A stretch of 64,000 bases of DNA from Tupaia tana (taxonomy: Eukaryota; Chordata; Mammalia; Scandentia; Tupaiidae). Under the pieces are notes generated by a model, which was not told where the DNA came from, searched no databases, and worked only from the letters and a program-made list of their open reading frames with translations. The stretch covers positions 1,240,001-1,304,000 of the forward strand of contig JAKSZU010000013.1 in assembly GCA_026018925.1 (NCBI GenBank), in the 5' to 3' direction. Shown piece by piece: positions 5,846-62,900 of this stretch (positions within the stretch are counted from its first letter, which is position 1; every line of letters starts with the position of its first letter). The translations under genes and the position numbers were made by a program.

Positions 5846-11939
<6,094 letters not shown>

Positions 11940-27752: not shown

Positions 27753-30452
27753 CTGGCCCAAAATCCTGAAAGGAGAATAGAGGAGAAAGGGTTGCAGCAT
27801 GGCCATCCCCTCATGGTGGGGGGTGATTTCTTGCTTTCTGTCTCTCACCCTATAGCAAAAAAAAAAGAAAAAAAAAGTCTTAAAAAAATGTTTATTTGTT
27901 GGGAACCAGCAGTTAGCGTAATGGCTATGTCGCTGGACTCCCACGTAGTCGACCGCGGTTCGCGTCTCGGACCCGGTGGCTTACAACTCACGCCGGGCGC
28001 GTGTGCGTGCGTGCCCAAGATCCCGAGAGGAGAACAGAGGAGAAGGGATTGCGGCGTGACCACCCCCCTGGGGGGTGATTTCTCGCTTTCTGTCTCTATG
28101 TCTCTCTCTGTCTGTCTGGCGAGTGCACGCGCCCTATAGCAAAAAAAACCTCTCCAAAAAAAAAAAAAAAAAAAAAAGTTTATTTGTTTATTTATTTCAT
28201 GAGCAAGAGAGAGAGACAGGCAGAGAGCGACAACACACCCAATAGGGCCTTCCCTGCTGTGATCTACCCGCAGTGCGCAGACGCCCAGACAGCCCTGGAT
28301 CATGGGCAGGCGTGTGCCCAGCATACTCAGCAGAGCCTCTGGACCTGAGCCAGAAACCTCTCCATGTGAGACCGCCTTGCAGACTGCCACATTTTACCTC
28401 CGCATCACTGGCTACCTCCTCTTAAGGCATTTTTTTTTTTTTTTGAGAGGTTTTCACTATAGGGCGCGTGCACTCGCCAGACAGAGAGAGACAGAAAGCG
28501 AGAAATCACCCCCCAGGAGGGATGGCCACGCCGCAATCCCTTCTCCTCCATTCTCCTCTCGGGATCTTGGGCACGCACGCACACGCGCCCGGCGTGAGTT
28601 TTAAGCCACCGGGTCCGGGACGCGAACCGCGGTCAACTACGTGGGAGTCCAGCGACATAGCCATTACGCTAACTGCTGGTCCCCTCTTAAGGCATTTTTG
28701 ATGGCTGATTTAATCTCTTTACTAGTGATCGTTATAGGTCTATTCAGATTTTCTATTACTTCATCACTTAGTTTTGATAGATTGTATTTTTAGAAATTTT
28801 TCTGTTTTATCTAGGTTTTCTAGTTTGTTGGTGTATAGATGTTCATAGTATCTGGGACCAGCAGATGGCATAATGGCAACGGCGCTGGACTCCCATGTAG
28901 CCGACTGCAGTTCGAGTCCCGGACCCAGTGGCTTAAACTCACTCTGGGCACGTGTGCGTGCGTGCGTGCCCAAGATCCTGAGAGGAGAATGGAGGGGAAG
29001 GGATTGCGGCGTGGCCATCCCCTCTGAGGGGGGGTGATTTCTCGCTTTTTGTCTCTCTGTCTCTCTGTCTTTCTAGTGAGCGCACGTGCCCTATAGCAAA
29101 AACTTCTCAAAAAAAGAAAATCATAACCCATAGTATTTTTTCTCTCTCTTTTAAGTTTATTTATTTACATATTACATGAAAGAGAGAGACAAATTGAGAG
29201 AGAGAGAGAGAGAGAGATTCTCAACAAAGTCCCCACGTTGTCAACCACCCCCAGTCTCAGCTGGCCCAGGTCACAGGCACACACACTCTCCGGAGTGCTC
29301 AGGGAGGTCCCAGGATATGAACCCAGGACTGCCCACGGGGGTCCAGGGTCATTACTGCTGTGCCACTGCCTTACTCCCATAGTATTCTCTAAGAAACCTT
29401 TACCTTTTGTGGGGGAGGGGTTGGCAGGTGGTGCAGAGGGTAAGGCGGTGGATTCCCATGACCAACTATGCAGTTCAAGTCCCAGACCCAACAACTTGAA
29501 AACCATGCTGGTACATGTGCATGACCGAAATCCCATGAGAAATAGAGGAGAAGGAGCTGCGGCATGGCCATCCCCTCCGGGGTGATTTCTCACTTTCCTC
29601 TCTATCTCCCTGGTGGGTGTTCGTGCCCTACTGCAAAACTGAAAACAAAAACAAAACCTTTTTATTTCTGTTAAATCGATTGTAATGTACCCACTTTCAT
29701 TTCCAACATTAATAACTCGAGTTTCTCTCTTTCTTGTCAGTTTAGATAAAGTTTTATGTGTTTTGTTGCGCTTTTCAAAGAATCAACTTTTGCTTTTGTT
29801 TTTCCAGTCTCTATTTCATATATCTTTAATCTTTATTTTTTTCCCTATAGCTTTGGGTTTCACTTGTTCTTTGGCCACTCTAGTCTTTATTTTTTCTTCT
29901 CTTTTGCTAGATTTGTCTTCTTTATCTGGTTTCTTAAGGCATAATGTTAGGTAATTGATTGGAAAGTTTTCTCTTTTAATATATATAAATGAATGTATTT
30001 GTTTATAATTTTCCCTCTCAGTATTGCATTTGCTGCCTTAGATTTTGGTGGGATTGTTTGTTTGTTTTGTTTGCTCTCACTTTGTTTTAATTTGTTTCAA
30101 AATATTTTCTAATATGTCTTAGGATTTCTTCTGTGAGCCACTGGTTGTTTAATTTCCACATATTCGTAAATTTTCGGTTTTCTTTCTGTTATTGATTCCT
30201 AGCTTCTTTCCATTTGATCAGAAAAGGTCCTTGGTATGATTTCAGTCTTTTAAAATATATCATGATTCAGGCCAGCAGATGGCATCATAGTTGGGGTGCT
30301 GGATCCCCACATGACTGACTGCAGTTTGAGTCCCAGACCTGGCAGCTTGCTTTCTCACTCTCTTTCTCTCTCTGTGTCTGTGGTGAGTGTGCCATGTAGC
30401 AAATTTTAAAATAATAATAATAAATAAAATTCAATAAAAATAGTTCTCTCTC

Positions 30453-30524
<72 letters not shown>

Positions 30525-33500
30525 CCTTGACTCACGTTGTGGCCAGATTTGTTTTTTTTTTAATTTAAAATAACTTTATCATAAAATCAATATATACTTA
30601 TTATAAAAATTATATAATACAGATCAACAAAGAACTAGTAAGGCCCACCACATTTCTATATATCCCTATGTACTCACGTACATACAGTCCTATTCATCAT
30701 TTTACCTACTATTAGAAGCTTGCTGTATATACTTTTAGATCTTTTCTACAGGCTTTTTAAAAATGAAAGCAGTTTTTTTTTTTTTTTTGTAACTATGGAG
30801 TAAATTTAGTTATGTACTGAAATCAGTTTTGTTTCTGTTTTTTTGTTGTTGTTGTTTTTGTTTTTTTTTACATTTAATCATTGCACCTCTTTACAGTGTA
30901 CAACATGGTTTTTCCCAGCATGAATACAGTGCACATTAGTCAAGACAATGATTATACCATATACATTATCATCAACAGACAACTTTTCATTTTTGTGTCT
31001 TTTAAGTGTGATGTTTGTTCCCTGAATCCCTCCCTTCTGCCCTCAATTATTTATTCCCATTACCTCTCCCATACTGTCTCTAGTATCTGCAGTTGCCATC
31101 CCTGCTATTATACCTTCCAGTTCTTTCAGTTTCTTTTTTTTTTTTTTTTTCAATTATCAGCTCATATAGTTTTTAACAATAGGGAGCATAGATTCTATTC
31201 AGGGTTGGATTAAGGGTGGGTCTCGTGCAGTTCCACAATTGTAGGTGAGTCTCCATAGAATACAGTTTCAGAAAAGCGGTTCTGAAAAGCAGAGGTGATT
31301 ATCAGTTGATGCAGCACAGCATCCATCTTGTGATTACCGGGAATGGTGTTGTGGGGATCTGCAGCATGAGTCATCCTCGGGTATCTGGCTTCCTTAAGAA
31401 TGGTAGAGTAGTTCTTGATTTTCCCTGAGGTAATGCAGGGCTGGTAACCATCATCTTCTCACTGTCCATAGGCAGAGAAAATCCTCCTATACAATATATT
31501 TCTCAATTGGTTTAAGACAGCTAAAGTTTCTTTCTGTTGCTTGTAGTTGCAAGTTCTTAATTCTAGTTTTTGGCTTCAGTTTGCCGCCTGTGGCCAGCGA
31601 CCACGCACAGGCGCAGGCCCGGGGGGCCACGCGCAGGCCCGGCGGCCACGCGCAGGTGCAGGCCTGGCGGCCATACTCTGGCCCAAAGGCCATGCCCAGG
31701 CCCGGCGGCCACGCCCAGGCCCGGGGACCACGTGCAGGCCCAGCGGCCACACTCAGGCCCGGCGGCCACGCGCAGGCCCGGAGGCCACGCGCTGGCCCGG
31801 AGGCCACGCACAGGCCTGGCGGCCACACGCCAGCCCCGAGCGTGTGAATGTGCGTGGGATCCAGCGCCACCTTCTGCTCGCCCGCCCGGCCTGAGAAAGG
31901 AAGGACGGCGAGCTCGGCCGGTCCGCGCCACTGGCCCGCGTCGGCGCCGAGCACGGGACACACCCAGCGTTGGAGAGGCAGCGGGGGCCGCGCAGGCCCA
32001 GCCACGCAGGGGCACGCGAGGCAGAGCCCCAGCCCGCCGCGCAGGCCCCTGGCCAGATTTGTTTTGTGATCTACTCTGGAGAATGTTCTATTTGCACTTG
32101 AGAAAAAAATGTGTGTTCTTTATTATTGAGTGAGGTGTTCTGTAGATTTTTTTTTTGAGAGGTTTTTGCTATAGGGTGCGTGCGCTCGCCAGACAGACAG
32201 AGAGAGACAGAGAGATAGAAAGCGAGAAATCACCCCCCAGGGGGGATGGCCACGCCGCAATCCCTTCTCCTCCATTCTTCTCTCGGGATCTTGGGCATGC
32301 ACGCACATGTGCCCGGTGTGAGTTTTAAGCCACCGGGTTTGGGATGCGAACCGCAGTTGACTACATGGGAGTCCAGTGACATAGCCATTACGCTAACTGC
32401 TGGTACCTCTGTAGATGTTTTTAAGGTAGAATCGGTTTATGGTGTCATCGAAGTCCTCTGCTTCCTTATTGATTGTCTGATTATTCTATATTTTACTGAA
32501 AGTGAGGTGTTGAGGGCTTCAACTATGGGGGGTGGTCTTCAAAACGTTTGTGGAAAATACATAATATGAAAAAACTATATGTGTGGATTTGAAAAAATGT
32601 TTGCCCCGAAATAAACGCATACTAACTTGCTGTAACACATCTAAACAGACTCTATTGGTAGTCTGAGGCACTGAGCAGGCCACAGTGCAGCCAGAGGTCT
32701 GATTGTATATTTACTAGTTTTAAAAATCTTTTCCAGAGGGCCTGGAGTGAGTCACACCCACAAATATTAACAGAGTATTTTGACTCATTGATAACAAGAT
32801 TCTTTTTACATTGTGTCCCTGGTATAGTATCTTTGTGATTTCAGCAGCGTTTCTTTTCCCACCTAAAAACTATAAAATCCACCTGTAACCTACAAGCCAC
32901 ATGTCCTGCCTGTTTGGGCCAGACCAATGAAAAAACTTGTCACTAAATTCCAAACCCTGTCTCTCACTCTCAAAATCAAATAAAAGAACCCCTGTATCTG
33001 ATCACCCTGAGAAAGGCATGGTTTTTGCTTCCTCTCTGGGCTTAGGTCACACATATTCTGCTTACAAATAAACCGCATTAAGGGAACCAGCAGTTAGCGT
33101 AATGGCTATGTCGCTGGACTCCCACGTAGTCGACCGCTGTTCGCGTCCCGGACCCGGTGGCTTAAAACTCACGCCGGGCGTGTGTGCATGTGTGCCCAAG
33201 ATCCCAAGAGGAGAATGGAGGAGAAGGGATTGCGGCGTGACCATCCCCCCTGGGGGGTGATTTCTCGCTTTCTGTCTCTATGTCTGTCTCTGTCTGGCGA
33301 GCGCACGCGCCCTATAGTGAAAAACCTCTCCAAATAAATAAATAAATAAATAAATAAACCGTATTAATTATTACTTTTGCAGAGTTGTTTATTTCTGTCA
33401 ACAAAGACATCAGTTTGAAAAGAGTCCCTGTCAGAACAGTATGGATTCTGCTAAAACTAAGGCAGGAACAAACATGAAATTAATGGTGAAAACTGGGTGG

Positions 33501-36500
33501 AAAAATGGTGAGATCATTGATGCTTTACCAGAAAACTATGGTGCAGCAAAATCAGCAGTTTACAAAGGACGATTCATTTTAAGCAGGGACAAGAGGTGCT
33601 GAAGATGACACACAGCAACAGTCCATCCACATCGAGTTGTGAGGAACACACTCTTCTTGCCCGTGCCCTCTTTAGGAAGGACAGTGATGAGCAGCACAGA
33701 CAGGAGCTAATACTACAGACACCGTCGTCAGTTCAGTGTGCCCCATTGTTACTGAGGCATTAAAGTTGAGTTAACTTTCTGCTCTATGGGTGGCAAAACT
33801 GTTGCTCTCAGATCAGCTGCAGATGAGAACAGAGCTTTCTTTTCTTTTTTAATTGCCATGAGGCACATGATATGCACTCCTCAGAGAAGGAAGCCACTCC
33901 CAATGGGCTGTCGTGTGCTGTAATCCTTTCTTCCTGTTAGGATTTGGGGCACAGAGACATGGCTCTGGCATGTTTTCAAGCCTCCAGGGATGGGACTTAA
34001 ACCACAGTTTGGCCCTATGTGATTTGGCTCCTTTAACCACCAGGCTGTGGGGCTGGCCCAAGAACAGAGCTTTCTGTGGAAACTTTAGAAAAGTGGGATC
34101 GGGACCAGCAGTTAGTGTAATGGCTATGTCGCTGGACTCCCACGTAGTCGACCGCGGTTCGAGTCCCGGACCTGGCGGCTTAAACTCACGCCGGGCACGT
34201 GTGCATGCGTGCCCAGGATCCCGAGAGGAGAATGGAGGAGAAGGGATTGCGGCGTGGCCATCCCCCCTGGGGGGGGTGATTTCCTGCTTTCTATCTCTCT
34301 GTCTCTCTCTGTCTGTCTGGCGAGCGCACACGCCCTATAGCAAAAACCTCTCCAAAAAAAAAAAAAAAAAAAAAAGAAAAGTGGGATCAAGATCCCGAAG
34401 CATTTCTTTGAGGAATTCGAGCAGGAGGGATGACCCTGAAGCACAGTGACAGCATAGTGCATTGTGGCCAGGCTCATCCCGTGATCTGTTCTGGAGAACA
34501 GTGTACTCTCTCACTAGGTGCAGTGTTCTGCAGCAGGAGCCCACACGGCCAGTCACTGTTCGAATCCTGGACCCACAACTGGAAAAGCATGCTGGTTGCA
34601 TGTGTGTGAATGCCCCTAATCCCGAAGGGGTAGAGAAATGAAAAGGGTTGTGGCATGACCACGTCTTATTGGGGGGTGCCCAGTGCTCTCTTTGGCAAGT
34701 GCATGCACCTTCTGACAACTAAAGGAAAAAAATTGTAACAGGAGATGACATACAGTTGTACTAGTATGGCCTTGAAGACAAAGCAGAAAGTGATGAGTAC
34801 CAAGAAGTGGAGGGGACTAAGTCTTGCACCTGGAAGCCAAATACTACGAGGCTGACCAGGGATCAAGCCCCAGCCCTGGCAGCTTGAAAAACCCTCCGTA
34901 TGTGTGTGTATACACATGTGCACAGCAACCCAACAGAACGGAGAACTGAAGGGGAAGGGTTGTGATCCCCCGCCAGGGAGGCATTTCTCACTTGCCCTCT
35001 CACTGTCTATCACTCTCTAGAGAGCACACACACCCTACTGCCAAAAAAAGGGGGGGGGGGGGAGAAAAAGAAGAAGAAGAAGAAGTGAAAAGAATAATGG
35101 TAGATTCTAGAAGCTGCACAGGGTATAGATTTGGGAGGAAAGGAAGAACAGACACAAGTATGGATGTAAACTAGAGGGATGGGCATGACACAGTGTGTCA
35201 TAGCAGAGGAAAACTGTCATTGACAATTCAGTAAAAAAACTAGTAAAACAGGGGACCGGTGGGTGGAGTGGTGGTTAAGGCGCCGGACTCACACGTGGCC
35301 GACCACAGCTCGTGTCCCAGACCTGGCGGCTTGTTTTCTCACTTTCCCGTTTGCTCTCTCAGGTGTGTGTACGTGATCTATAGCAAATTTTTTAAAAAAA
35401 TAAATAAAAATTAAATAAGTGCTTTTTCACTTTCCTTCTCTTTCGTTGCCTCTCTTGAGTGAGTGCACATGTTTGATAGCAAACTTTGAAAACAATAATA
35501 AATGAAAATTAAATAATTCTTCGAAAAAAGAATATTGAATGTTCATAACATAATGTGATATAAAACAGAAGGTAATGAGTGTGTTTACATCCTTGATTTG
35601 ATTATTGCACACTGTATATATGCCTTTAAAAAGCATGCTCTGGGGAACGAGCAAATGTATTGGTTACATCACTGGACTCCCATGTAGTTGACCGTGGTTT
35701 GAGTCCCAGACCCGGTGGGAGAAAAGGATGAACAGACAGGAGTATGCCTGTAGACAGATGGGATGGGGCATGAAATGGTGTATTACAGCAGAGGAAAAAA
35801 TGTCATTGACAATTCAACTTAAAAAACTAGTAAGGGGCGGCGGCCGGCCCCGCCTCCGCCGGGCCTGCGCGGCGACCTGCCGGGCCTGTGCGCCACGGCG
35901 CTGCATCTCTGGCGCTGGGTATGTCCCATGCTCGGTGCTGGCGCGGACCAGCGGCGTGGACCGGCCGAGCTCGCTGACCTTCCTTTCTTGGGGCGGGCGG
36001 GCGAGCGGGGGGGATGGCGCTGGATCCCGCGCACAGTCGTGCACTCGGGGCTGGCGTGTGGCCGCCGGGCCTATATGTGGCCGCCGGGCCTGCGCGTGGC
36101 CGCTGGGCCTGCGCCTGCGCGTGGCAGCTGGGCCTGAGCATGGTCGCCGGGCCAGTGTGGGGCCACCGGGCCTGCACGTGGCCCCTGGGCCTGCGCGTGG
36201 CCGCCGGGCCTGTGAGTGGCCGCCGGGCCAGCGCCTGCGCTTGGCCGCCGGGCCTGTGAGTGGCCGCCGGGCCAGCGCCTGCGCTTGGCCGCCGGGCCTG
36301 CGCGTGGTCACTGGCCTAGCGCATGACCACCAGGCTTGTGCGTGGCCCCCAGGCCTGCCCGTGGCTGCCGGGCCAGAGCTTGGCCCCCGGGTCTGCGCCT
36401 GGCCTCCGGGCCAGAATGTGCCCGCTGGGCCTGCGCGTGGCCGTTGGGCCTGCGCCTGCATGTGGCCGCCGGGCCTGCACATGCCCGCCGGGCCGGTGCG

Positions 36501-39500
36501 TGGCCCCCGGGCCTGCGCGTGGCCGCCGGGCCTGTGCCTGTGCGTGGCCGCTGGGCCTGCCCGTGTCCGCCGGGTCAGAGCCTGGCCCCTGGGTCTGCGC
36601 CTGGCCTCCGGGCCGGAACGTGGCCGCTGGGCCTGCGCGTGGCCGCCGGGCCTGCGCGTGGCCGTTGGGCCTGCGCCTGCATGTGGCCGCCGGGCCTGCG
36701 CGTGGCCGCCGGGCCGGCGCGTGGCCACCAGGCCTGCACCTGTGCGTGGACACTGGGCCTGTGCGTGGGCGCCGGGCCAGTGCGTGACCGCCGGGCCGGC
36801 GCGTGGCCCCTGGGCTGGCGCGTGGCTGCCGGGCCTGCACCTGCGCGTGGCCACCAGCCTCAGGCGACAAACTGAGGCCGAAAACTAGGACTAACAACTT
36901 GCAACTACAAACAACAGAAAGAAACTTTGGCTGTCTTGAACCAATTGAGAAATATATTGTATAGGAGGATTGTCTCCGCCTATGGACAGTGAGAAGATGA
37001 TGGTTACCAGCCCTGCATTACCTCAGGGAAAGACAAGAACTACTCTACCATTCTTAAAGAAGCCAGATACCCGAGGATGACTCACGCTGCAGATCCCCAC
37101 AACACCATTCCCAGTTACCACAGGATGGATGCTGTGCCGCATCAACTGATAGTCATCTCTGCCTTCAAGAACCGCTTTCCTGAAACTGTCTTACATGGAG
37201 ATTCACCTACAATTGCAGAACTGCACGAAACCCACCCTTAATTCAACCCTGAATAGACTCTATGCTCCCTATTGTTAAAAAAAAAAAAAAAAACTAGTAA
37301 GGGGCCAGCAGGTGGCGTGGTGGTTAGGGTGGCTGGACTCCCACCTGGCTGACTGTGGTTTGAGTCCCAGACCTGGCAGCTTGCTTTCTCACTTTCCTTC
37401 TCTCTCTGTATCTCTCTCTGGTTAACTTCAAAAAACTAAAATAAAATAATGACAATGAATAAAATTAAATAAAATCTTAAAAAAAAAAAACAAAACTAGT
37501 AAAACAAGGGACCGGTAGGTGGAGTGACGGTGAAGACCCTGCATTCAGGGGGGTCCTTAAGGTAGGAGGAGGTCTTGTGTGACTGGGCGTCCGCTCGACC
37601 TCTGTGAGGAGAGTTTTCAGTCTCTGGCCTGGCAGATTTGCTCTTTGCTTTCGGACCCGAGTCCTCCACTGTAAACAGGCTCCGCCAGCTCCTGGGCCAG
37701 GCCAAGAAGCATCCGAGTTTGATTCCCCTGTTTATATTTATTGGAGCAGGAGGCACTGGAGCAGCACTGCCTCTCATGCATTTGGCAATGTTCAATCCTA
37801 ATGTCTCTTGGGACAGAAAGAATAACCCTGAGCCCTGGAACACACTGGGCCCCAATGATCAGTACAAGTTTTACTCAGTGAATGTGGATTCCAGCAAACT
37901 GAAGGAGGAAGGCCCAGACTTCTAAATGAAATGTTCCACTATAAAGCTGCTCATAATGAAGGGCTTCCAGAAGCCATCCGCACAAGTTTCCACTTACCCA
38001 GGAAATACTCTCCTCTAAATGCATGAAGTCATTTTGATGTGTTCAGATTTACATTGGTTAATAGATACCTGAAACTTGGTATGTGTCAGTAGTTAATGCT
38101 GAAATTCTGCTCTGAGCTTTATAACTAGGGTATAGGAAATAAAACATTAGATGAAAAAAAAGACACTGGATTCACACATGGTCGGCCACGGTTTGAGTCA
38201 CAGACCTGGAGACTGGCTTAAAACTCACACCAGGCGTGTGTGCGTGCATGCCCCAAGCCCCGAGAGGAGCATGGGCGAGAAAGGACTGAGGCGTGCCACC
38301 CTCCTGGGGGACAATCTTTCTCTTTCTGTCTGGCGAGTGCATGTGCCATATAGCAAAAATCTCTTTCTAAAAAGAAAAAAACATGCTCCACCCCACGAAG
38401 ATGTGTAACAGTAGTAAGTAATGAGGAACAACAATAAAAAATGTAAAAAGACTGCCTTGATATTTTAAGGGATGGACTAAGTGGCTGGCATCATCACTCT
38501 AAAAAAGCACCTTGGGGATAAGCAGTTGGTGTAATGGCAGTGTCGCTGGACTCCCACGTAGTCAACCACTGTTTGAGTCCCGGACCTGGTGGCTTAAACT
38601 CATGCCACATGCGTATGCATGTGTGCCCAAGATCCCGAGAGGAGAATGAAGAGACTGCGGCATGGCCATCCCTTCTGGGGTGTGATTTCTCGCTTTCTGT
38701 CTCTCTGTCTTTCTGGTGAGCGCACGCGCCCTGTAGCAAAAACTTCTCAAAAAAAAAAAAAAAAAAGCACCTTGAACTTGATGGAGTTTATATTGAGAAA
38801 TAAAGTTTATGGGGGGGCCTGCAGGTAGCATGGTGGTTAAGAGTGCTAGATTCCCATGTGGTTGATTGTGGTTTGAGTCCTAGACCTGGCAGCTTGCTTT
38901 CTCACTTTTCCTGTCTCTCTCTGGTCAAATTAAAATGAACAAATAAATAAAGTTAAATAAAAAATTATTTTAAAAACGTTTTTATTTTTATTTAAAACTT
39001 TTTTTATCTTTAGATTTTTGCCACAGGGCACATGTACTTATTGGAGACAGAGAGAGGGAACGTGAGAAACCGCCCCTGGGGAAGATGGCCATGCCTCAAT
39101 CTCTTCTCTTCTCTTCTCGGGATTTTGGGCATGCACGCAGATGTGCCCAGTGTGTTTTTCAAGCTGCCAGGTCTGGGACTCAAACCGTGGAATCAGCTAT
39201 ATGGGATCCAGAGCCCTAACCATCAAGCCACCTCTTGGCCCCTTATTTTTATCTTTTAATTCCATTATTTTTTTCAGAAACTTTCTGAAGTTTTGTGTTA
39301 TTTCAGAGTTATCTATTTCCCCCTTTAATTCTCCCAATGCTTGATTCATATATTTGAAGGCTTTGATGTTTCATGCATATATATTTTTTTATTTTTTATT
39401 TATTTTTTTTTTTGGAGAGGTTTTTGCTATAGGGCGTATGCGCTTGCCAGACAGACAGAGAGAGACATAGAGACAGAAAGTGAGAAATCACCCCCCAGGG

Positions 39501-42500
39501 GGGATGGTCACGCCGCAATCCCTTCTCCTCCATTCTCCTCGCGGGATCTTGGGCACGCATGCACACGCACCCGGTGTGAGTTTTAAGCCACCGGGTCCGG
39601 GACGCGAACCGCGGTCGACTACGTGGGAGTCCAGCGACATAGCCATTATGCTAACTGCTGGTTCCCATGCATATATGTTATATAGTCTTGGTGTATTGTC
39701 CCTTTTATTACTTTATGATGTGCTTTCTACCTCTTATGCCTTGTAAGGTTTTGACTTCAGTCTCCTTTGATAGGAGAATAGCCACCTCAGCTCTCTTTTG
39801 CTTTCTCTTTGTATGGGTGGTCTTTTCACATCTTTTTCACTTACAGTTTACTTGTGTCTTTAGATCTAAAGTGAGTCTTTCATAAACTACATAGAGTTGG
39901 ATTCGATTTTTTTCCCTTGGGTTTTTGCCATCAGGCGTGTGTGTGCTCATCAGAGAGAGGGAGAGTAAGAAATCACACCCTGGGGGGTGGCCATGGTGCA
40001 CGCCCTTCTCCTTCATTCTCCTCCTGGGATTCCGGGTATGCACGCACATGTGCCTGGCATGATTTTCAAGCCTCCAGGTCTAGGACTCAAACTGTGGTTG
40101 ACCACCTGGGAATCCAACGCCTTAACATCTTATGCCCCCTACTAATCTCAGTTGGATCACATTTTCAAAAATCGATTTTAGGGACCAGCCAGTGGCATAG
40201 TGGTTAGGGTGGCCGGATCACTTATAGTCAACTATGCAATTTGAATCCTGGACCCCACGGCTTGGAAAACATGCTGGGCGCGTGTACGTGTGTGCTCAAA
40301 ATCCAGAGAGGAGGAAGAAGGAGAAGGGATTGCAGTGTGGCCATCCCCCAGGGCAGCGATTTCTCACTTTCTCTCTGTCCCTCTCTGACAAGTACACATG
40401 CAGTATAGAAAAAAAATTCCATTCTGCCAGTCTACTTTTGATTGTAGAGTTTAACCTATTTACATTTAAAGCAGTTGCTGAGAAGAGTGACACACCCCTG
40501 CCAGTTTGTTTGTCTTGTTTCCTGTGTACCTTACAGCTGTTGATAGATCCTTGTTTCCTCCACTACTGCCTCCTGTTATGTTTAGATTTTTGTGTTTTGA
40601 TTCCCTTATCATGGAGATTACATTAACATCCTAAAGTTAGAACAGTCCACTTGAATCGATACCAACTTACCTCTAATCACAGACAGAAACTACCTCTGTG
40701 AAACAGCCCAGCCTGTGTGCCTGGAGAGTGGGATGAGCTGATGTCCCCCTCAGTCCCTGGGCTGGGACCCTCTTGGGATCCAGTGCCCCTGTGATTGTCG
40801 ATCGCCCACTTTCACTTCACCTCTCAGCTTTAAAGGCCTACAACTGTTTTTTAATATACATTCAATGATTTTTTTTTTATGCAAGAGGGTGTGTGTGCTT
40901 GCCAGAGAGTGAAAGCACCCGCCGTGGTCACACTGCCATCCCCTTTCTGCCACTTGACCCCGTCAGGATGTGGGGTATCCATGTACGTGCACCTGGTGGG
41001 TTTTTCAAGTTGCTGGGGGCCGGGACTTGAATCATAGTTGGCCCTATGGGACCTGTTTTTTTGTTTTGTTTTGTTTTTCCAAGAGAGAGGGTTTTGTTTT
41101 TGTTTTGTTTTGTTGTAAGGTGTGTACACTTGCTAGAGAGACACAGAGAGAGGCAGGGACACTTCTGGCTGGGAGGTGACTGGTTTGCAGTTGTGGAAAG
41201 TCTCAAGGCGTTGCAGATGCTGGTCTTAGGAAGATGGGCGTGGCCCACCTGGGGCCGTGGGAGAGAGCTGTGGGCTGGGTTCAGGCCTTCCCTCTGCTGC
41301 CTGCACCATCCCCAGAGGCCCCACGGGTGGCCCGTGGAAAGTCCTGAGTGTTTTCCGGGATGAGCGCTCCGGCACAGGACTGAGGCAGAAGTTGTGGCCC
41401 TTCCCAGCTACTCTGCGCTCGGGCCCACTTCCATCGCCCCACGAGGCAGGTCTCGGGGTGCCCACCATGTGGCTGGGCGTCTGCCATCCTGTGGCCAGCC
41501 CCAGGCCATGGCCCCAGTGCCCTCGGCTGCGCTGGCTCATGCCCTGTGGCCTCCGTTTCAGATCTGACCTACTGTGACCGGCTGGTACAGGACACGCCTT
41601 TCCTGACGGGCCACGGGCGCCTGAGTGAGCAGCAGGTGGACAGGATCATCCTGCAGCTGAACCGCTACTACCCACAGATCCTCACCGACAAGGAGGCAGA
41701 AAAGGTGCTGAGGAGGTGAGGGTGGGGGTGCCCGGACCCCCAGCTCCCTCCCTTTCCACACTGGGAGAAGCCGCACTGGCTCTGGGTTGTCCTCTCAAGG
41801 AAGACACACGGGCGTGTCGGGACAGCTCAGAGGTGACATGCTTGGCCTGGGCCGTGGAGCTGCTGAGCTCTTTGGGCGCCCTAGGGTGGGCCAGGACATG
41901 GCCTTCTGTGTCTGTCTCTTCATATGTCGCTGGGCACACACTGCTCACCTCACCCAGCACTGCCGGCCCCTCTGGGGTTGTTAGGAGGGTTGCAAGAGAC
42001 ACAGATGACAGAACAAGACCAGGGAGAGAGCAGGGGGAGGCTGAGCAGAGGAGGGGAGGCAGAGAGCCGAGGGAGGCCAGAGTGGGGAGCAGGGGGAGCG
42101 GGGGTGGGCAGGAGGAGTAGGAGTGGGGAGCAGGGGAAGCTGGGGGGAGCTGGGGAGCAGGGGTAGCAGGGATGGGGAGCAGAGTGGCAGAGGTGGGGAT
42201 TGGGGAGCAGGGGTGGGGAGCAGGGGTGGGGAGCAGGAGCAGTAGGAGTGGGGAGCAGGGGAGCAGGGGTGGGGAGCAGGAGCAGTAGGAGTGGGGAGCA
42301 GGGGAGCAGAGGTGGGGAGCAGGAGCAGTAGGAGTGGGGAGCAGGAGCAGTAGGAGTGGGGAGCAGGAGCAGTAGGAGTGGGGAGCAGGGGAGCAGGGGT
42401 GGGGAGCAGGGGTGGGGAGCAGGAGCAGTAGGAGTGAGGAGCAGGGGAGCAGGGGTGGGGAGCAGGAGCAGTAGGAGAGGGGAGCAGGAGCAGTAGGAGT

Positions 42501-45500
42501 GAGGAGCAGGGGAGCAGGGGTGGGGAGCAGGAGCAGTAGGAGAGGGGAGCAGGAGCAGTAGGAGTGGGGAGCAGGGGAGCAGGGGTGGGGAGCAGGAGCA
42601 GTAGGAGTGGGGAGCAGGGGAGCAGGGGTGGGGAGCAGGAGCAGTAGGAGAGGGGAGCAGAGGTCCAGCTGGCCATCCGTCAGTGGCACCGGGCTCTCCA
42701 TTCTCAGCTTCCCCTGAGTGTCAGGTACGTGAGGCTGGAAGGCCCAGCCTGTCTCAGGAGGGCCCCTGGGGCTCTGGGGCGTGGGGGGCGCCGAACCATC
42801 CCGCAGCCTGGCCTCACCCTGCGGCCCTGCTTACGGAGGGGCTGGTCCCGCTGGGAGCCTCTGCCCCACACAATTACGCACAGCCCTGGCAGCGGCAGCG
42901 GGTGGTACCTGAGCTCTGCTCCTGCCTGGGCGACAGAGGCCCTGAGGCCCAAGAGCCATGGCTTGCCCGGGGTCACCCATGTCAGCCGTGCCCTGACATG
43001 TGGGAGGGTGCCAGGTGGCTGTCGGGTGGCCCTGCCTCTCTGAGCTTGGACTGGCTGTGTGATGGTATTTGAGGTGCAGCCCTGGCCCTGTCCTGCGAGG
43101 TCAAGTCTAGCCCCACCCGCCAGGTGCCCTGACCTGAGGGCCTCCGGTTTAGGGACGCCCTGGCCACCTCACCCACCCCTCCGCTCACCTCCTACCCCAA
43201 CTGCCTTCTCCCTGGCAACAGTCGTGACACTGTGTGTATGTGTGTGTGTGTGTGTGTGTGCGCGCGCCCGCACACATGGTAGGGGACACAAACCACTAGG
43301 TCTTCAGGGCCCAGGTTCTGTCCCCTGGCCCAGCACCCGCCAAGGCACCCTGCGGGTCCCTTCTCTTGAGTCGAGTCTCCTCACTTGGCGCAGGGTCTGT
43401 CCCTCACTTGGGTCAAGGCATCTCATGGAACCAGGAGATCGGTGTGCCAAGAACTGGACCAGCATCAGCCCGGCTCTTGCTCAGCTCCTGGTCGCGTTTA
43501 GGCTATACGAGGGGACGGGGACAGGGACAGGGACTGTCCGCACACACATTCCTCTCCTAGGAAGCACACAGGGCTCCGAGGCCACCTGTCTGCAGTTTCC
43601 ACATGGCAAATTCCGGAGCCCTGTAAAACAGTCTGCTGCCACCGGGTGGCAGCATCAGGCCACGGCGTCGGGTCCTGGGTCCATGCCAGGTGTCATTCTA
43701 CTGTGTTCAGCACCACACATTGGTCAGACACAGGGAGGGAGAACTGATGTTTAGAAGAATTATTGGCAGAGGGCGTGTGCATTCACCAGTGAGAGAACGA
43801 GACAGAGGAAGAGGGAGAAATCACCCACGATCCCTTCTTCATGTCCCTGTCCTGGGGTGATTTAGGGCATATGTGCACAGGGTGCTTTTCAAGCCCCTGG
43901 GCTGGGATTTGATCCATGGTCGGCCATGTGGGGTCTTGTTTTCTTGGGCTACATGGCTGTACCAAGAACTAACTCTTTTTTTCAGATTTTTAAACTTTAT
44001 TTCAAGAGAAAGAGAACAGCACCCCAGTGGGGCCTCACAGAACAGCCACCCCTCCCTCGCTTCAGCCCCCAGCCATGGCCGTGCGCATGCCCAGTGGACT
44101 CGGGAGGCCCTGGCTGCGGTGCAGGGCCTTCCTGCCTGGGGTGGCCTCACAGGGCACCCATGTACTGCTGCGCACCACCTGGCTCCCTGACTTATTTTAT
44201 TTCATGTTTAAAATGTTCTGCTTGGGGACCAGCATATGGCATAATGGCTACGTCACTGGATTCCCACGTGGTCGACCGCAGTTCGAGTCCTGAACCCGGC
44301 AGCTTGAAACTCAGGCCAACCGTGTGTGCGTGCCCAAGATCCTGAGAGAATGGAGGAGAAGGGATTGTGGAATGGCCATGCCCCCTGGTGGGTGATTTCT
44401 TGCTTTCTGTCCCTCTGGCAAGTGTATACACCCTATAGCAAAAATCTCTCCCAATTTTTTTTTCCTGCTGTTTGCTTGCTATAGGGTGTGTGCATTCGGA
44501 AAGAGATGGGGGTTGTGGGGAGAGATCGCCCCAGCAGCATGGCCGTGCCACACCCCCTTCTCTGTCCTCTCAGGATTTGGGCATGCACACACCTGCCGGG
44601 CATGTTTTCATGCACTAAGCCCAGGACTGGAACTGCACCATTGGCCATGTGGGATTCAGCGCCTCAACCAGCGCACCACCCGCTGGCCCAGTTTTTATTT
44701 TATTCATAATGAACAGTGCATGCACTCATGGGAGAGAGAGGAGAGCCGGGAAGGCGCCCGGCCCACCGCAGCCATTTTCCTGCAGTCCTCCATCCATCAG
44801 GACCTGAGCCGCGTGTGGGAGCCGGGCAGAGCTGATGCCCAATCCTGAGCCCGATGGGGCGCGGGAGCCGGTCTCCTCTGCGTGGCACCTGACGCCGCAC
44901 CGCGGCCAGTGACGCAGAACTGCCAAGCTGGCGCTGCCCCCGGTCCCCGGCCCCTGGAAGCGTCCTGCCATGTGTGTGTATCCTCCCCTCTTACGAATGG
45001 AGAACCTGGGCCTCCGAAGGGTGAAGAGACTGGCCAGGCCACAGGAGGCCTCTGTCCCAGCACTGAGATGTGGCCGCCTACTGGTGCTATCCCAGCGGCC
45101 TCTCCCAGGGACGTCTCCGGGCTCAGCCCTGGCCCACAGGGAGTATGAGGGTCAGGGTGTTGCCCACGGCAGGCGGCGCCACGCCATGTGACTGCCAGGC
45201 CCATGCCACCCGCAGGTGTCCTGACGCTGTGACGAAGCTGAGGATGGGGCTGGAGCCACACGCCCTGACCCACCCCTTCCACCTTGCCCCCCAGTTCCGG
45301 AACCCCAAGGCCTCGCTGCGCCTGCGGCTCTGTGACCTCCTGGGCCACCTGCAGCGGAGCAGTGAGCGGGACTGCCGGGAGTTCTACCGCGCCCTGTCCA
45401 TCCACGCCCAGCCCCTGCACAACCGCCTGCCCAGCCGCCTCGCCCTGCGTAAGTCCACCGGGCTCGCTCGTGCCCCGCCTCGCACCTCCATGGCCCCCAG

Positions 45501-48197: not shown

Positions 48198-48577
48198 TCC
48201 ACGTTTACAATGAGGAAACAGGCCCAGGGGACTGGGGGCAGAGGTCACTGCCCAGGTCACTCAGCCAGTGAAGACAGAGGGGGGACATTAGGCCTGGCCT
48301 GAGTTCAAGCCCCCCATCCCTTGTCCCCTTCCTGTGACTGTCCAAGGAGGCCCTGTGGCCCCAGCCCTCTCCCCGTGTCCCTTCTCCTGGCCTCTCGGTC
48401 ACCGTCCAGTTTCAGAGCCCCTCCCCTGCCAGCCTCTGCCCTAGGGTCTGAGGTCTCCAGACCCACATCTAGCCAAGGTTGCTGCCGGGCCGGGTGGGTC
48501 CAGGGACCCACCACCCCACGTGGGGTACAGTCACAGCCAGAGCCTGTGGCTGGAAGTGAGCCTGAGGCCTCTCCACT

Positions 48578-51500
48578 GACCCAATGGCTACGCGTGCCCA
48601 GGCTAGCAGGGGCCAGTCTCTGACCCACAGTGGCTACGCGTGCCCAGGCTAGCAGGGGCCAGTCTCTGACCCACAGTGGCTACGCGTGCCCAGGCTAGCA
48701 GGGGCCAGTCTCTGACCCACAGTGGCTACGCGTGCCCAGACTAGCAGGGGCCAGTCTCTGACCCAATGGCTACGCGTGCCCAGGCTAGCAGGGGCCAGTC
48801 TCTGACCCAATGGCTACGCGTGCCCAGGCTAGCAGGGGCCAGTCTCTGACCCACAGTGGCTACGCGTGCCCAGGCTAGCAGGGGCCAGTCTCTGACCCAC
48901 AGTGGGTACGCGTGCCCAGGCTAGCAGGGGCCAGTCTCTGACCCAATGGCTACGCGTGCCCAGGCTAGCAGGGGCCAGTCTCTGACCCACAGTGGGTACG
49001 CGTGCCCAGGCTAGCAGGGGCCAGTCTCTGACCCACAGTGGGTACGCGTGCCCAGGCTAGCAGGGGCCAGTCTCTGACCCACAGTGGGTACGCGTGCCCA
49101 GGCTAGCAGGGGCCAGTCTCTGACCCACAGTGGGTACGCGTGCCCAGGCTAGCAGGGGCCAGTCTCTGACCCACAGTGGCTACGCGTGCCCAGGCTAGCA
49201 GGGGCCAGTCTCTGACCCACAGTGGCTACGCGTGCCCAGGCTAGCAGGGGCCAGTCTCTGACCCACAGTGGCTACGCGTGCCCAGGCTAGCAGGGGCCAG
49301 TCTCTAACCCACAGTGGGTACGCGTGCCCAGGCTAGCAGGGGCCAGTCTCTGACCCACAGTGGCTACGCGTGCCCAGGCTAGCAGGGGCCAGTCTCTGAC
49401 CCACAGTGGCTACGCGTGCCCACGCTAGCAGGGGCCAGTCTCTGACCCACAGTGGCTACGCGTGCCCAGGCTAGCAGGGGCCAGTCTCTGACCCACAGTG
49501 GGTACGCGTGCCCAGGCTAGCAGGGGCCAGTCTCTGACCCACAGTGGCTACGCGTGCCCAGGCTAGCAGGGGCCAGTCTCTGACCCACAGTGGCTACGTG
49601 TGCCCAGGCTAGCAGGGGCCAGTCTCTGACCCAATGGCTACGCGTGCCCAGGCTAGCAGGGGCCAGTCTCTGACCCAATGGCTACGCGTGCCCAGGCTAG
49701 CAGGGGCCAGTCTCTGACCCACAGTGGCTACGCGTGCCCAGGCTAGCAGGGGCCAGTCTCTGACCCACAGTGGCTACGTGTGCCCAGGCTAGCAGGGGCC
49801 AGTCTCTGACCCAATGGCTACGCGTGCCCAGGCTAGCAGGGGCCACCCACAGTGGGTACGCGTCCCAGGCTGCAGGGGCCCAATGGCTACGCGTGCCCAG
49901 GCTAGCAGGGGCCAGTCTCTGACCCACAGTGGCTACGCGTGCCCAGGCTAGCAGGGGCCAGTCTCTGACCCAATGGCTACGCGTGCCCAGGCTAGCAGGG
50001 GCCAGTCTCTGACCCACAGTGGGTACGCGTGCCCAGGCTAGCAGGGGCCAGTCTCTGACCCACAGTGGCTACGCGTGCCCAGGCTAGCAGGGGCCAGTCT
50101 CTGACCCAATGGCTACGCGTGCCCAGGCTAGCAGGGGCCAGTCTCTGACCCACAGTGGGTACGCGTGCCCAGGCTAGCAGGGGCCAGTCTCTGACCCACA
50201 GTGGCTACGCGTGCCCAGGCTAGCAGGGGCCAGTCTCTGACCCACAGTGGCTACGTGTGCCCAGGCTAGCAGGGGCCAGTCTCTGACCCAATGGCTACGC
50301 GTGCCCAGGCTAGCAGGGGCCAGTCTCTGACCCAATGGCTACGCGTGCCCAGGCTAGCAGGGGCCAGTCTCTGACCCACAGTGGCTACGCGTGCCCAGGC
50401 TAGCAGGGGCCAGTCTCTGACCCAATGGCTACGCGTGCCCAGGCTAGCAGGGGCCAGTCTCTGACCCACAGTGGGTACGCGTGCCCAGGCTAGCAGGGGC
50501 CAGTCTCTGACCCACAGTGGCTACGCGTGCCCAGGCTAGCAGGGGCCAGTCTCTGACCCAATGGCTACGCGTGCCCAGGCTAGCAGGGGCCAGTCTCTGA
50601 CCCACAGTGGGTACGCGTGCCCAGGCTAGCAGGGGCCAGTCTCTGACCCACAGTGGCTACGCGTGCCCAGGCTAGCAGGGGCCAGTCTCTGACCCACAGT
50701 GGCTACGCGTGCCCAGGCTAGCAGGGGCCAGTCTCTGACCCAATGGCTACGCGTGCCCCAGGCTAGCAGGGGCCAGTCTCTGACCCACAGTGGCTACGCG
50801 TGCCCAGGCTAGCAGGGGCCAGTCTCTGACCCAATGGCTACGCGTGCCCCAGGCTAGCAGGGGCCTGTCTCTGACCCACAGTGGGTACGCGTGCCCAGGC
50901 TAGCAGGGGCCAGTCTCTGACCCACAGTGGGTACGCATGCCCAGGCTAGCAGGGGCCAGTCTCTGACCCACAGTGGGTACGCGTGCCCAGGCTAGCAGGG
51001 GCCAGTCTCTGACCCACAGTGGGTACGCGTGCCCAGGCTAGCAGGGGCCAGTCTCTGACCCACAGTGGCTACGCGTGCCCAGGCTAGCAGGGGCCAGTCT
51101 CTGACCCACAGTGGCTACGCGTGCCCAGGCTAGCAGGGGCCAGTCTCTGACCCACAGTGGCTACGCGTGCCCAGGCTAGCAGGGGCCAGTCTCTGACCCA
51201 CAGTGGGTACGCATGCCCAGGCTAGCAGGGGCCAGTCTCTGACCCACAGTGGGTACGCGTGCCCCAGGCTAGCAGGAGCCAGTCTCTGACCCAATGGCTA
51301 CGCGTGCCCAGGCTAGCAGGGGCCAGTCTCTGACCCACAGTGGCTACGCGTGCCCAGGCTAGCAGGGGCCAGTCTCTGACCCACAGTGGCTACGCGTGCC
51401 CAGGCTAGCAGGGGCCAGTCTCTGACCCACAGTGGCTACGCGTGCCCCAGGCTAGCAGGGGCCAGTCTCTGACCCAATGGCTACGCGTGCCCCAGGCTAG

Positions 51501-52250
51501 CAGGGGCCTGTCTCTGACCCACAGTGGGTACGCGTGCCCAGGCTAGCAGGGGCCAGTCTCTGACCCACAGTGGGTACGCATGCCCAGGCTAGCAGGGGCC
51601 AGTCTCTGACCCACAGTGGCTACGCGTGCCCAGGCTAGCAGGGGCCAGTCTCTGACCCACAGTGGCTACGCGTGCCCAGGCTAGCAGGGGCCAGTCTCTG
51701 ACCCACAGTGGGTACGCGTGCCCAGGCTAGCAGGGGCCAGTCTCTGACCCACAGTGGGTACGCATGCCCAGGCTAGCAGGGGCCAGTCTCTGACCCACAG
51801 TGGGTACGCGTGCCCCAGGCTAGCAGGAGCCAGTCTCTGACCCAATGGCTACGCGTGCCCAGGCTAGCAGGGGCCAGTCTCTGACCCAATGGCTACGCGT
51901 GCCCAGGCTAGCAGGGGCCAGTCTCTGACCCACAGTGGGTACGCGTGCCCAGGCTAGCAGGGGCCAGTCTCTGACCCACAGTGGCTACGCGTGCCCCAGG
52001 CTAGCAGGGGCCAGTCTCTGACCCACAGTGGGTACGCGTGCCCAGGCTAGCAGGGGCCAGTCTCTGACCCACAGTGGCTACGCGTGCCCAGGCTAGCAGG
52101 GGCCAGTCTCTGACCCACAGTGGCTACGCGTGCCCAGGCTAGCAGGGGCCAGTCTCTGACCTAATGGCTACGCGTGCCCAGGCTAGCAGGGGCCAGTCTC
52201 TGACCCACAGTGGCTACGCGTGCCCAGGCTAGCAGGGGCCAGTCTCTGAA
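48578..52250 (+). repeat. 3.7 kb minisatellite, about 81 units of 46 or 44 bp
   Basis: Each unit holds TACGCGTGCCCAGGCTAGCA and CCAGTCTCTGACC. Three main types alternate: CACAGTGGCTACG (46 bp), CACAGTGGGTACG (46 bp) and CAATGGCTACG (44 bp). Homogeneity is very high; one damaged unit lies at 49844-49880. It sits between the convergent 3' ends of CARD19 and NINJ1. Open frames here (for example minus 49697-50017) are repeat shadows. Confidence 0.97.
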
Positions 52251-59925: not shown

Positions 59926-62900
59926 CTGGAGAGAAGAGTGAGGAGGGTCAGGGCGCCTGCTGGCTGACGGCTGAGCCAGGGACCAGCCCCTGAGCATCGG
60001 TGCCACTCAGACAGGCTTGGGAGTGGGGAGCCGGGATCTGCCCTGGTGAGTTACCAGAGCGTCCGGGCCTCAGTCTCCCTTCTGGAAACAGGATGAAGAT
60101 ACTCTTCCTGGGCCGTGCCAGGATTCAAAGACCAGGTCTAGCATGGGGCCGGGCAGCTATGACCACAGCACTCACTACCCTGACCTACTCTGACAGCCTC
60201 TGACAGCACGGTGCTCGGTGGCCCTCAGCTCGAGGTCTCTGAGGGCACCGCCGGGTCCCCACGCCCAGGTGCCCACAGGCCCCAGCATCCTCTCAACCGG
60301 CAGACGGCCCATGTCAGGGACAGTCAAGGACGGCACTCGGGGTACACATTCGGCAGTCAGCAAGTGACCTGGCCATCGAGCCGTGACAGAGCTGGCGGGC
60401 ACCCAGCCTCTGCAGGGGGACAACTTATTCAGGCAGGCAGCTGTCGGATGCTACATGGGACACCCAGATCCCACTCTGGCAAGAAGGTGGCCTCAGGTCC
60501 ATGGCCAAGGCATGGGGCCAGGGTGCCCCATGGTGGGGAGGGCCCTGGGTGAGGTGCCCAGCAGGCCACCACAGGATCAGGCACTCCCGACTCACCTGAA
60601 CGCCCAGCACCCAGCGCCCCGGCCCACTGTCCACTGCAGCCTCTCGGGGTCCTCCTGCACAGCTGACGCCCAGCACCCAGGCCCACTGTCCACTGCAGCC
60701 TCTCGGGGTCCTCCTGCACAGCTGACGCCCAGCACCCAGGCCCACTGTCCACTGCAGCCTCTCGGGGTCCTCCTGCACAGCTGACGCCCAGCACCCAGGC
60801 CCACTGTCCACTGCAGCCTCTCGGGGTCCTCCTGCACAGCTGACGCCCAGCACCCAGCGCCCAGGCCCTGTCCACTGCAGCCTCTCGGGGTCCTCCTGCA
60901 CAGCTGACGCCCAGCACCCAGGCCCACTGTCCACTGCAGCCTCTCGGGGTCCTCCTGCACAGCTGACGCCCAGCACCCAGGCCCACTGTCCACTGCAGCC
61001 TCTCGGGGTCCTCCTGCACAGCTGACGCCCAGCACCCAGCGCCCAGGCCCACTGTCCACTGCAGCCTCTCGGGGTCCTCCTGCACAGCTGACGCCCAGCA
61101 CCCAGGCCCACTGTCCACTGCACCCTCTCGGGGTCCTCCTGCACAGCTGACGCCCAGCACCCAGCGCCCAGGCCCTGTCCACTGCAGCCTCTCGGGGTCC
61201 TCGCTGTCCCCAGCACACAGGTACTCTGCCCCATGCCCAGGTGGCTCTGCCCACTCTCCCGTAACCACTAGGCAGGCACCTGCCAGGAGCGCCCACCCCT
61301 CGGCAGGCCTCTCCATGTCTGGGACAAATCCGGGGTCACACGGCCGTGGTGTGTCTGGCCCAGGCACGCCCTACCCACCAGGCCTTCCTGCCCCTGGGCT
61401 GGGTGTCCTCAGGCCGGAGTTTGCCCTCTTAGAGCCAGAGCAGCGGGAGGGCCTGTGTTGTCTGAGAAGCACTTCCCATGGTGGGCCTTGTCCTGTATCG
61501 CAGAAGGGGGAGGTCTGTCTACACCCCGCAGCCAGATCCTGTCCCAGCAGGTGGGCATAGACTGCGAGGCGTGGAAGGGGCAGTTGTGACGTGTTCGATT
61601 AGATCTCACCGCCCTGGTCAGCCCTGGTCAGACGGAGGGAGTCATTCACAGCCCTGCCAGGGATGGCTTGTGTGTTGAGTGGGGTCAGCAGGGGCACAGA
61701 GGCCCTGGTTGACTCAGGGAAGCCAGGCCTCTCAGCTCCAGTGAGCCCTCCAGATGCTGAAAAGCGGGTGGCAGAGCATGGTGCCTGAATCCTGTCACCA
61801 GGGGACCCAGGCAGCCCGTGCCAGGGCAGGCCTGGCGAGTGGACAGTGCCAGAACAGAGTCCGAGGGTGGTAGCCCTCTGCAGGTGGCAGGCAGGCGTGC
61901 CCTCCCCTGGCTCACCTGCGTGCCCTACTGCTGGGGCGCCACGTCCACCATGGGCTTCTGCACCCCGAAGGCCGTGATGAAGATGTTGACCACCACGATG
62001 ATGAACACCAGCCCCGTGGCCAGGTTGTTGAGGAAGTCCAGCGTTGCGTGCTTGGCCGGATTATTCAGGTCGTACTTGACTGCGGGTGAAAGCGGAGTGG
62101 CTGGTGCCGAGGGCAGGCGGGCCCAGCGCCTGGAGACCCTCTCAGGTGGGGCCATGCCATGTTTGCTGCGTCGTAGGCCCTCGGCTGCACTGAGCATTTT
62201 AGGAGAGCTGTTTCCTAAAAGCCCCGATTTGCCTAGGGGCCCACTCTGCACAGCCACCGCACCCCACAGGAGCCGAGGCTTGGGCGGGTCAAGGGCCTGG
62301 GTCTGGCCCCTGCTGGACAGCAAAGGAGGCCCAGGCTCTGCAGGAAGCGTGCTGAGCCTGCGCACCTCGCCCAGCTCTCCCACTGACCACAGCCCTGCCG
62401 GGCGTGTCCCAGGGCTTGTCACCTGCCCAAGGTTGTGCAGGACGAGGTGCAGCAGCTCAGTCCAGTCTGCCTCCCACCTGCCATGGTCCATCTGTCCGCC
62501 CTTCCACCAGAGGAAGTCAGTCCGCGGTCAGGGCGCCCTCGCTCAGTTACTTAGTCCAGGGAAGCATCGGGGTGCAGCCTGCACTCCGGGTCTTCTCTCA
62601 ACAGACTCCCCATGGCAACAGTCAGCGCCAAGGCCTCTCCTGTTTGCTTCTGGGCCCAGGTCTCCACCCCCTACCCCCCCAGCCTCAACCCCACTCGCCT
62701 CCCGAGTAACTTGACACCTCCTTTCTCACTGTACAATCATCACCAGGGATGGCTCATAGCTCATGCTGGGGACATCAAGATTACTGCCCCATCTGTCTCT
62801 CAGGCTGAGGCCATTTGGCAGCATGGCCAGAGCAGGGCCCAGAGAGACAGGCGCTCTGAGTCCCACAGGCCCAGGCCCTGAAGAGCTCTTGCAAAGCTCC

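Follow-up and report, generated by a model that had tools for sequence, protein, structure and literature searches.

Can a composite retroelement built like SVA exist outside the hominoid primates? We addressed this question in a 64-kb stretch of contig JAKSZU010000013.1 (the window), where a preliminary description had singled out two GC-rich inserts. Composites containing a variable number of tandem repeats (VNTR) are described as specific to hominoid primates, with the ancestor SVA2 also present in macaque (PMC4432496). Comparison of the inserts with each other and with the whole window showed that a unit of GC-rich leader, VNTR, 3' domain and A-tail is common to both, which lie ~4 kb apart in opposite orientation. 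We consider it fairly probable (roughly 0.6) that they represent a non-autonomous retroposon family mobilized by long interspersed element 1 (LINE-1, L1), with an SVA-like architecture assembled from apparently unrelated parts.

Architecture of the two inserts

Reading and comparing the inserts bore out the layout first proposed for them, with leader, VNTR, 3' domain and A-tail in opposite orientations. Copy 1 occupies positions 30556..32049, has its sense on the minus strand, is bounded by target-site duplications (TSDs), and runs from the first letters GGGGCCTGCG to a closing A-run. In element order it comprises a GC-rich leader (31841..32049), a VNTR of ~12 units (31597..31840), a 3' domain (31175..31594), and a 3' extension of ~614 bp of AT-rich DNA (30556..31169), which lies past an A5 run (31170-31174) and within the TSDs. 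Copy 2 lies on the plus strand at about 35838-37293 and is also flanked by TSDs. It consists of a leader (35838..36053, the start being ambiguous within 35834-35839; GC 0.77, CpG observed/expected ratio 0.95), a VNTR of ~40 units (36054..36856), a 3' domain placed by alignment with copy 1 (36857..37276), and an A-tail of 17 A as read from the sequence (37277..37293), of which the last 6 are common to tail and TSD.

Over 420 columns the two 3' domains show 36 differences (91.4% identity, E 8e-173), and neither has a further match in the window at E 0.001. The claim of a common, unique 3' domain followed by an A-tail thus stands for both copies.

The leaders are 80% identical over 172 bp (E 5e-39), have CpG observed/expected ratios of 0.94-0.95, and at E 0.001 match, apart from each other, only the VNTR sequence of the two copies. 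Both copies start with GGGGC at about the same distance from the common leader core and therefore look 5'-complete, with the proviso that the GGGGC of copy 2 may equally be TSD sequence. Of the 5' end described at the outset as nearly the same in both copies, the first ~70 bp align poorly. VNTR-like motifs occur in this initial part: two GGGCCTG motifs lie within the first 78 nt of each copy, a count reached by 4 and 8 of 5000 shuffles, and none lies in the leader core of either copy (the stretch after the first 78 nt). The leader is thus laid out as a diverged repeat-like start, then a single-copy core, then the VNTR. Core differences between copies amount to 26 of 141 columns, with 23 gapped columns from an imperfect core cut, and CpG sites hold 24 of the 48 differences found over the whole leader.

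Repeat segmentation gave a VNTR consensus unit of 19 bp, identical in both copies, with variants of 18-25 bp and a GC content of 0.80. A GC-rich VNTR is thereby confirmed, and its unit length is corrected from the ~18 bp originally given. Copy 2 was segmented into 41 pieces, ~40 of them units, and copy 1 into 14, ~12 of them units, with edge pieces making up the rest; the arrays differ three-fold in length (803 bp in copy 2 versus 244 bp in copy 1). The outer parts of the arrays are conserved: the copies have the same first junction, GGGGCTGGCGT/GTGGCC, and both VNTRs close on a unit of one 18-nt type next to the 3' domain.

One unit with two 3' ends

Copy 2 closes with ...CCTATTGTT and 17 A. 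The same CCTATTGTT leads, in copy 1, into five A, then into ~614 bp of unrelated AT-rich DNA that reaches the TSD and closes on an A-run, so that the overrun starts exactly at the A-run where copy 2 ends. This extension (GC 0.29 over 608 bp) is new here and absent from the earlier account of the element. AATAGA, a variant poly(A) signal, lies 19 nt upstream of the A-run in both copies (37252-37257 in copy 2), and GATAAA and ATTAAA occur near the final end of copy 1. The simplest account is that one weak poly(A) signal served for copy 2 and was passed over in copy 1. By the same account, an element copy as source would make the extension a 3' transduction, and a gene as source would make it alternative polyadenylation.

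The extension itself contains sense A-runs of 17, 9 and 16. Two runs of at least 14 occur in 608 bp, where the rest of the window, composites excluded, would predict 0.09 (Poisson P 0.004). This excess would fit serial transduction, an A-rich source flank, or insertions nested in the tail, each of them possible. Part of the extension shows a weak alignment with a generic L1 3' end (score 56, reached by 5 of 200 shuffles), so that a nested L1 fragment, from an L1 3' end, is possible there.

Target sites and independent insertion

Exact TSDs flank both copies, as had been claimed, at lengths of 16 and 17-18 bp instead of the 15 and 17 bp first reported. For copy 1 the duplicates lie at 30540..30555 and 32050..32065 (16 bp, TGGCCAGATTTGTTTT). 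For copy 2 they lie at 35821..35838 and 37288..37305 (17-18 bp, AAAAAACTAGTAAGGGG(C)); the last GGGGC of the left duplicate is ambiguous with the 5' end of the element, and the right duplicate enters the 5' end of a resident short interspersed element (SINE). L1-mobilized retroposons carry TSDs of about 7-20 bp at A-rich endonuclease sites, and both copies conform. The cut sites on the sense side of the element, CTT/AAAAAA and CAC/AAAACA, are A-rich, and CTT/AAAAAA is a standard L1 endonuclease site. The L1 endonuclease target is given as TT/AAAA in PMC13174262.

We also identified a paralogous empty site (35132..35279), where the copy 2 target region recurs as a diverged local duplicate that lacks the insert. 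Its left part, 35132-35246, matches the left flank of copy 2 (35716-35833) at 82%, the trace of an old local duplication, and 35233-35279 matches 37489-37535, beyond the neighboring SINE, at 87%; the two matches overlap in the target motif. Most of the right-hand match consists of the head of another SINE that both duplicates carry, the non-SINE part of the match being the short target motif. The empty site holds this motif once, without copy 2 and without the adjoining SINE, and copy 2 therefore entered pre-existing sequence. The adjoining SINE (37304-37485) has its first bases within the copy 2 TSD, which places the insertion of copy 2 after that of the SINE. This SINE sits at the ACTAGTAA target that copy 2 later reused, one site having received two retro-insertions.

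The TSD that each copy has of its own and the unoccupied duplicate of the copy 2 target support the conclusion that the two copies are separate, independent L1-type retro-insertions of one unit. One RNA-like unit entered two A-rich sites, each with a duplication of 16-18 bp, and on one occasion brought additional downstream sequence along. A long terminal repeat (LTR) element was considered and rejected: LTR-element TSDs measure 4-6 bp, and here we find TSDs of 16-18 bp and an A-tail.

Copy 1 had also been described as interrupting a LINE-1 that its removal would restore without a break. This is borne out only in part. L1-like sequence is present on both sides: 30148-30268, to the left, aligned with a generic L1 stretch, and the right flank, from about 32055 on, aligned with the continuation of that stretch. 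The halves are not otherwise contiguous, being split also by a SINE (30270-30439) and a TG/TA microsatellite. Joining the flanks of copy 1 did not improve the match to the generic L1 sequence, and this comparison is non-discriminating, as 500 of 500 left-flank shuffles reached the observed score.

Comparison with described VNTR composites

SVA carries an A-tail and 3' transductions. SVA is described as having a GC-rich 5' part, a GC-rich VNTR with units of 30-50 bp whose outer units are conserved, a single-copy 3' part and TSDs, and as being mobilized by L1 in trans; hominoid composites have a CT-repeat/Alu-like 5' region in common, and the hexamer/Alu-like 5' region is the minimal active human SVA (PMC4432496). 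The composite described here has the same order of parts, TSDs and conserved outer VNTR units, as well as the family-specific 3' domain (420 bp in common) and A-tail of the hominoid composites. It differs from SVA in starting with GGGGC, in having no CT hexamers as read and no Alu-like region (judged against a generic Alu consensus and Rfam), in its 19-bp units, which contrast with units of 30-50 bp, and in its apparently non-hominoid host. It is not an SVA by membership, because it has no Alu-like part and its units are 19 bp long rather than 30-50 bp, though it is SVA-like in working.

The gibbon families LAVA, PVA and FVA have variant 3' ends on one VNTR body and are mobilized by L1 in trans, according to the same source (PMC4432496). 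The composite resembles them in its variant 3' ends on a common VNTR body and differs in lacking the CT-repeat/Alu-like 5' region, in having no Alu match along its whole length, and in a 3' domain that is not recognizably L1. SVA2, of macaque and gibbon, consists of a VNTR plus a 3' part without the Alu-like head. It is described as the common ancestor of the VNTR composites, with units of mainly 40 and 39 bp (PMC4432496), whereas those of the composite are 19 bp. The transfer RNA (tRNA)-type SINEs of the window are likewise A-tailed, and the one at 37304-37485 lies at the same target motif as copy 2. None of the window SINEs matches the composite in sequence, in agreement with the proposal that the resident SINEs are a different family.

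Searches for relatives

The preliminary description recognized no Alu-like, SINE-R or L1 part. This stands for the Alu-like part: the best match of either copy to a generic Alu consensus has E 1.2, and the window contains no Alu at E 0.001 by the same consensus. Neither 7SL/SRP nor any other Rfam family matches copy 2 above chance (E 1), and the whole window gave 0 Rfam matches at gathering scores. A SNORA13 candidate on the minus strand of the copy 2 3' end scored 22.9 bits (cut-off 53, E 0.34) and was taken as chance. Ten chosen reading frames yielded no coding capacity for mobilization which, together with the A-tail, is as for an L1-mobilized retroposon; nine of the 10 had no Pfam family, and one had a chance-level zinc finger (E 1.9). 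Those of the 10 that lie in the 3' domain gave no Pfam match.

A search with a 349-aa frame through leader and VNTR scored 8000 candidates and gave no protein at E 0.001, although composition filters may hide repeats of this kind. The protein search does reach mammals, as a Sushi exon in the window found 75 proteins. In viral_contigs, exact patterns taken from the 3' domain and the VNTR had 0 matches, as did one from the 3' domain in genome_contigs. The viral_contigs collection also returned 0 matches for a common L1 motif and thus seems poor in mammalian DNA, so its silence means little. Among the literature matches listed, no title or abstract opening concerned a VNTR composite from a non-hominoid; this scope took in neither subscription papers nor Dfam or Repbase, and without them the negative says little. 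Motifs of the window SINEs had no literature match.

Host and neighboring features

tRNA-type SINEs are dense in the window and fall into two families, exemplified by 34104-34360 and 37303-37480; at a lowered threshold, ARAGORN found a tRNA-like head in both SINE consensus heads. The type of these SINEs also prompted a guess at a colugo host, which none of the searches supports. In the longer family, 15 copies are 82-99% identical to a consensus built from those copies, so some copies are recent. Since the 3' domains of the composites differ by 8.6%, this range suggests that the two composites fall in the same broad age span as the SINE family.

A frame at 5846-6547 on the plus strand contains a Sushi domain (residues 121-180, E 3e-6) and has 75 relatives, many of them named SUSD3, suggesting that the window lies at SUSD3. 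Among the matches listed, the best-scoring relative is from Tupaia chinensis (78% over 36% of the frame), and identity of the exon to the 75 proteins does not exceed 81%. Absence of Alu from 64 kb, the dense tRNA-type SINEs, and this ceiling of 81% for the SUSD3-like exon indicate that the host is very probably not a hominoid.

Downstream of copy 2 by ~0.4 kb lies an NDUFA4 processed pseudogene (37680-37922, plus strand; 81 stop-free codons, E 9e-46 to PDB chain 9w2z_N). The window also contains a large minisatellite of ~80 copies of a 46-bp unit (48576-52249), for which a 138-bp period was likewise reported, and minisatellites at 42020-42660 (G-rich 43/65-bp units) and 60610-61202 (59-bp unit), neither of which matches the composite at E 0.001.

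Alternative explanations

The strongest alternative, though an unlikely one, is that a single host transcript, with a CpG island plus minisatellite as its first exon, gave rise to both inserts as retrocopies (processed pseudogenes); the copies would not propagate, and copy 1 would reflect a distal poly(A) site. The CpG-rich leader with its similar 5' start fits such a transcript, as do two 3' ends that start from one sequence, and the NDUFA4 pseudogene means that mRNA retrocopying has occurred in this lineage. A coding parent, however, finds no support in the 82-aa frame that the 3' domains have in common. It has 9 synonymous versus 13 non-synonymous changes, a frame as long is present in 470 of 2000 shuffles, and no homologue was found: it has no Pfam family, the best PDB match is at E 0.48, and no protein-database candidate has three 5-residue words in common with it. 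We rejected it as a coding sequence; it behaves, as far as these comparisons go, as non-coding, which would still fit a non-coding parent. Two retrocopies within 4 kb are also unexpected for a rare event, though the spot was picked for them, and the three-fold difference in VNTR length is weak evidence in the same direction.

Rather less likely is an internally deleted or 5'-untranslated region (UTR)-only L1 derivative, in which leader and VNTR are the 5' UTR, made of tandem GC-rich units, of the genome's own L1, joined to unrelated 3' sequence. The 5' UTR of L1 is GC-rich and varies widely from one lineage to another, and the window yielded no young L1 of this genome, which would leave room for such an origin. 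Swaps of 5' UTRs by recombination with other RNAs have also been speculated on (PMC13174262). Against this derivation, the 10 chosen frames contain no L1 protein match, the 3' domain scores 28 against a generic L1 3' end (a score without shuffle control), and the composite does not match the L1 remnant of the window, a remnant that is old and represents another part of L1.

A segmental duplication or assembly artefact is very improbable: although the copies lie 4 kb apart in opposite orientation, near the old local duplication of 35132-35246 and 35716-35833, duplication is ruled out by their different exact TSDs, different targets and opposite strands, the lack of common flanks outside the inserts, and the unoccupied duplicate of the copy 2 target.

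A working model

We therefore return to an L1-mobilized retroposon family as the preferred reading. In such a family, an RNA polymerase II transcript would start near GGGGC from the CpG-rich leader and end at the weak AATAGA signal, as in copy 2, or read through to a later signal, as in copy 1. L1 would copy this RNA in trans via target-primed reverse transcription, the VNTR would grow or shrink by exchange among units, and daughter copies could act as sources.

Several points weigh against this model. Two copies are known, with no proof that one copy gave rise to another, and the promoter activity and L1 dependence of the composite are inferred. The first ~70 bp of the two leaders can be aligned only poorly, and the leader is more diverged between copies than the 3' domain (48 of 210 versus 36 of 420 columns), an observation that is adverse or neutral. 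AATAGA and GATAAA are weak poly(A) signals, and hexamers of this type are common in AT-rich DNA. The searches for relatives were also narrow, being limited to candidates with three 5-residue words in common and to 8000 candidates for the repeat-rich frame.

From the preliminary claim that an unrelated mammal built an SVA-like element, what stands is two L1-type insertions of a leader-VNTR-3' unit with no match to the Alu consensus or the window SINEs. The fuller proposal, that a non-hominoid mammal independently evolved an L1-parasitic, polymerase II-driven VNTR composite with its own 3' domain, which carries downstream DNA along, is more tentative, its chances being somewhat short of even.

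Implications

The significance of the composite falls if it turns out to derive from an L1 5' UTR or to be a repeat already catalogued. If the proposal is true, the SVA architecture would have arisen more than once as a way to be copied by L1, and would not be a one-off ape assembly around Alu. A second, unrelated origin, without an Alu-like part and with units of half the length, would make it possible to ask by comparison whether L1 needs a passenger RNA to have the VNTR, the GC-rich start, or no more than the A-tail. For the order to which the host belongs, the composite could supply a family of presence/absence markers.

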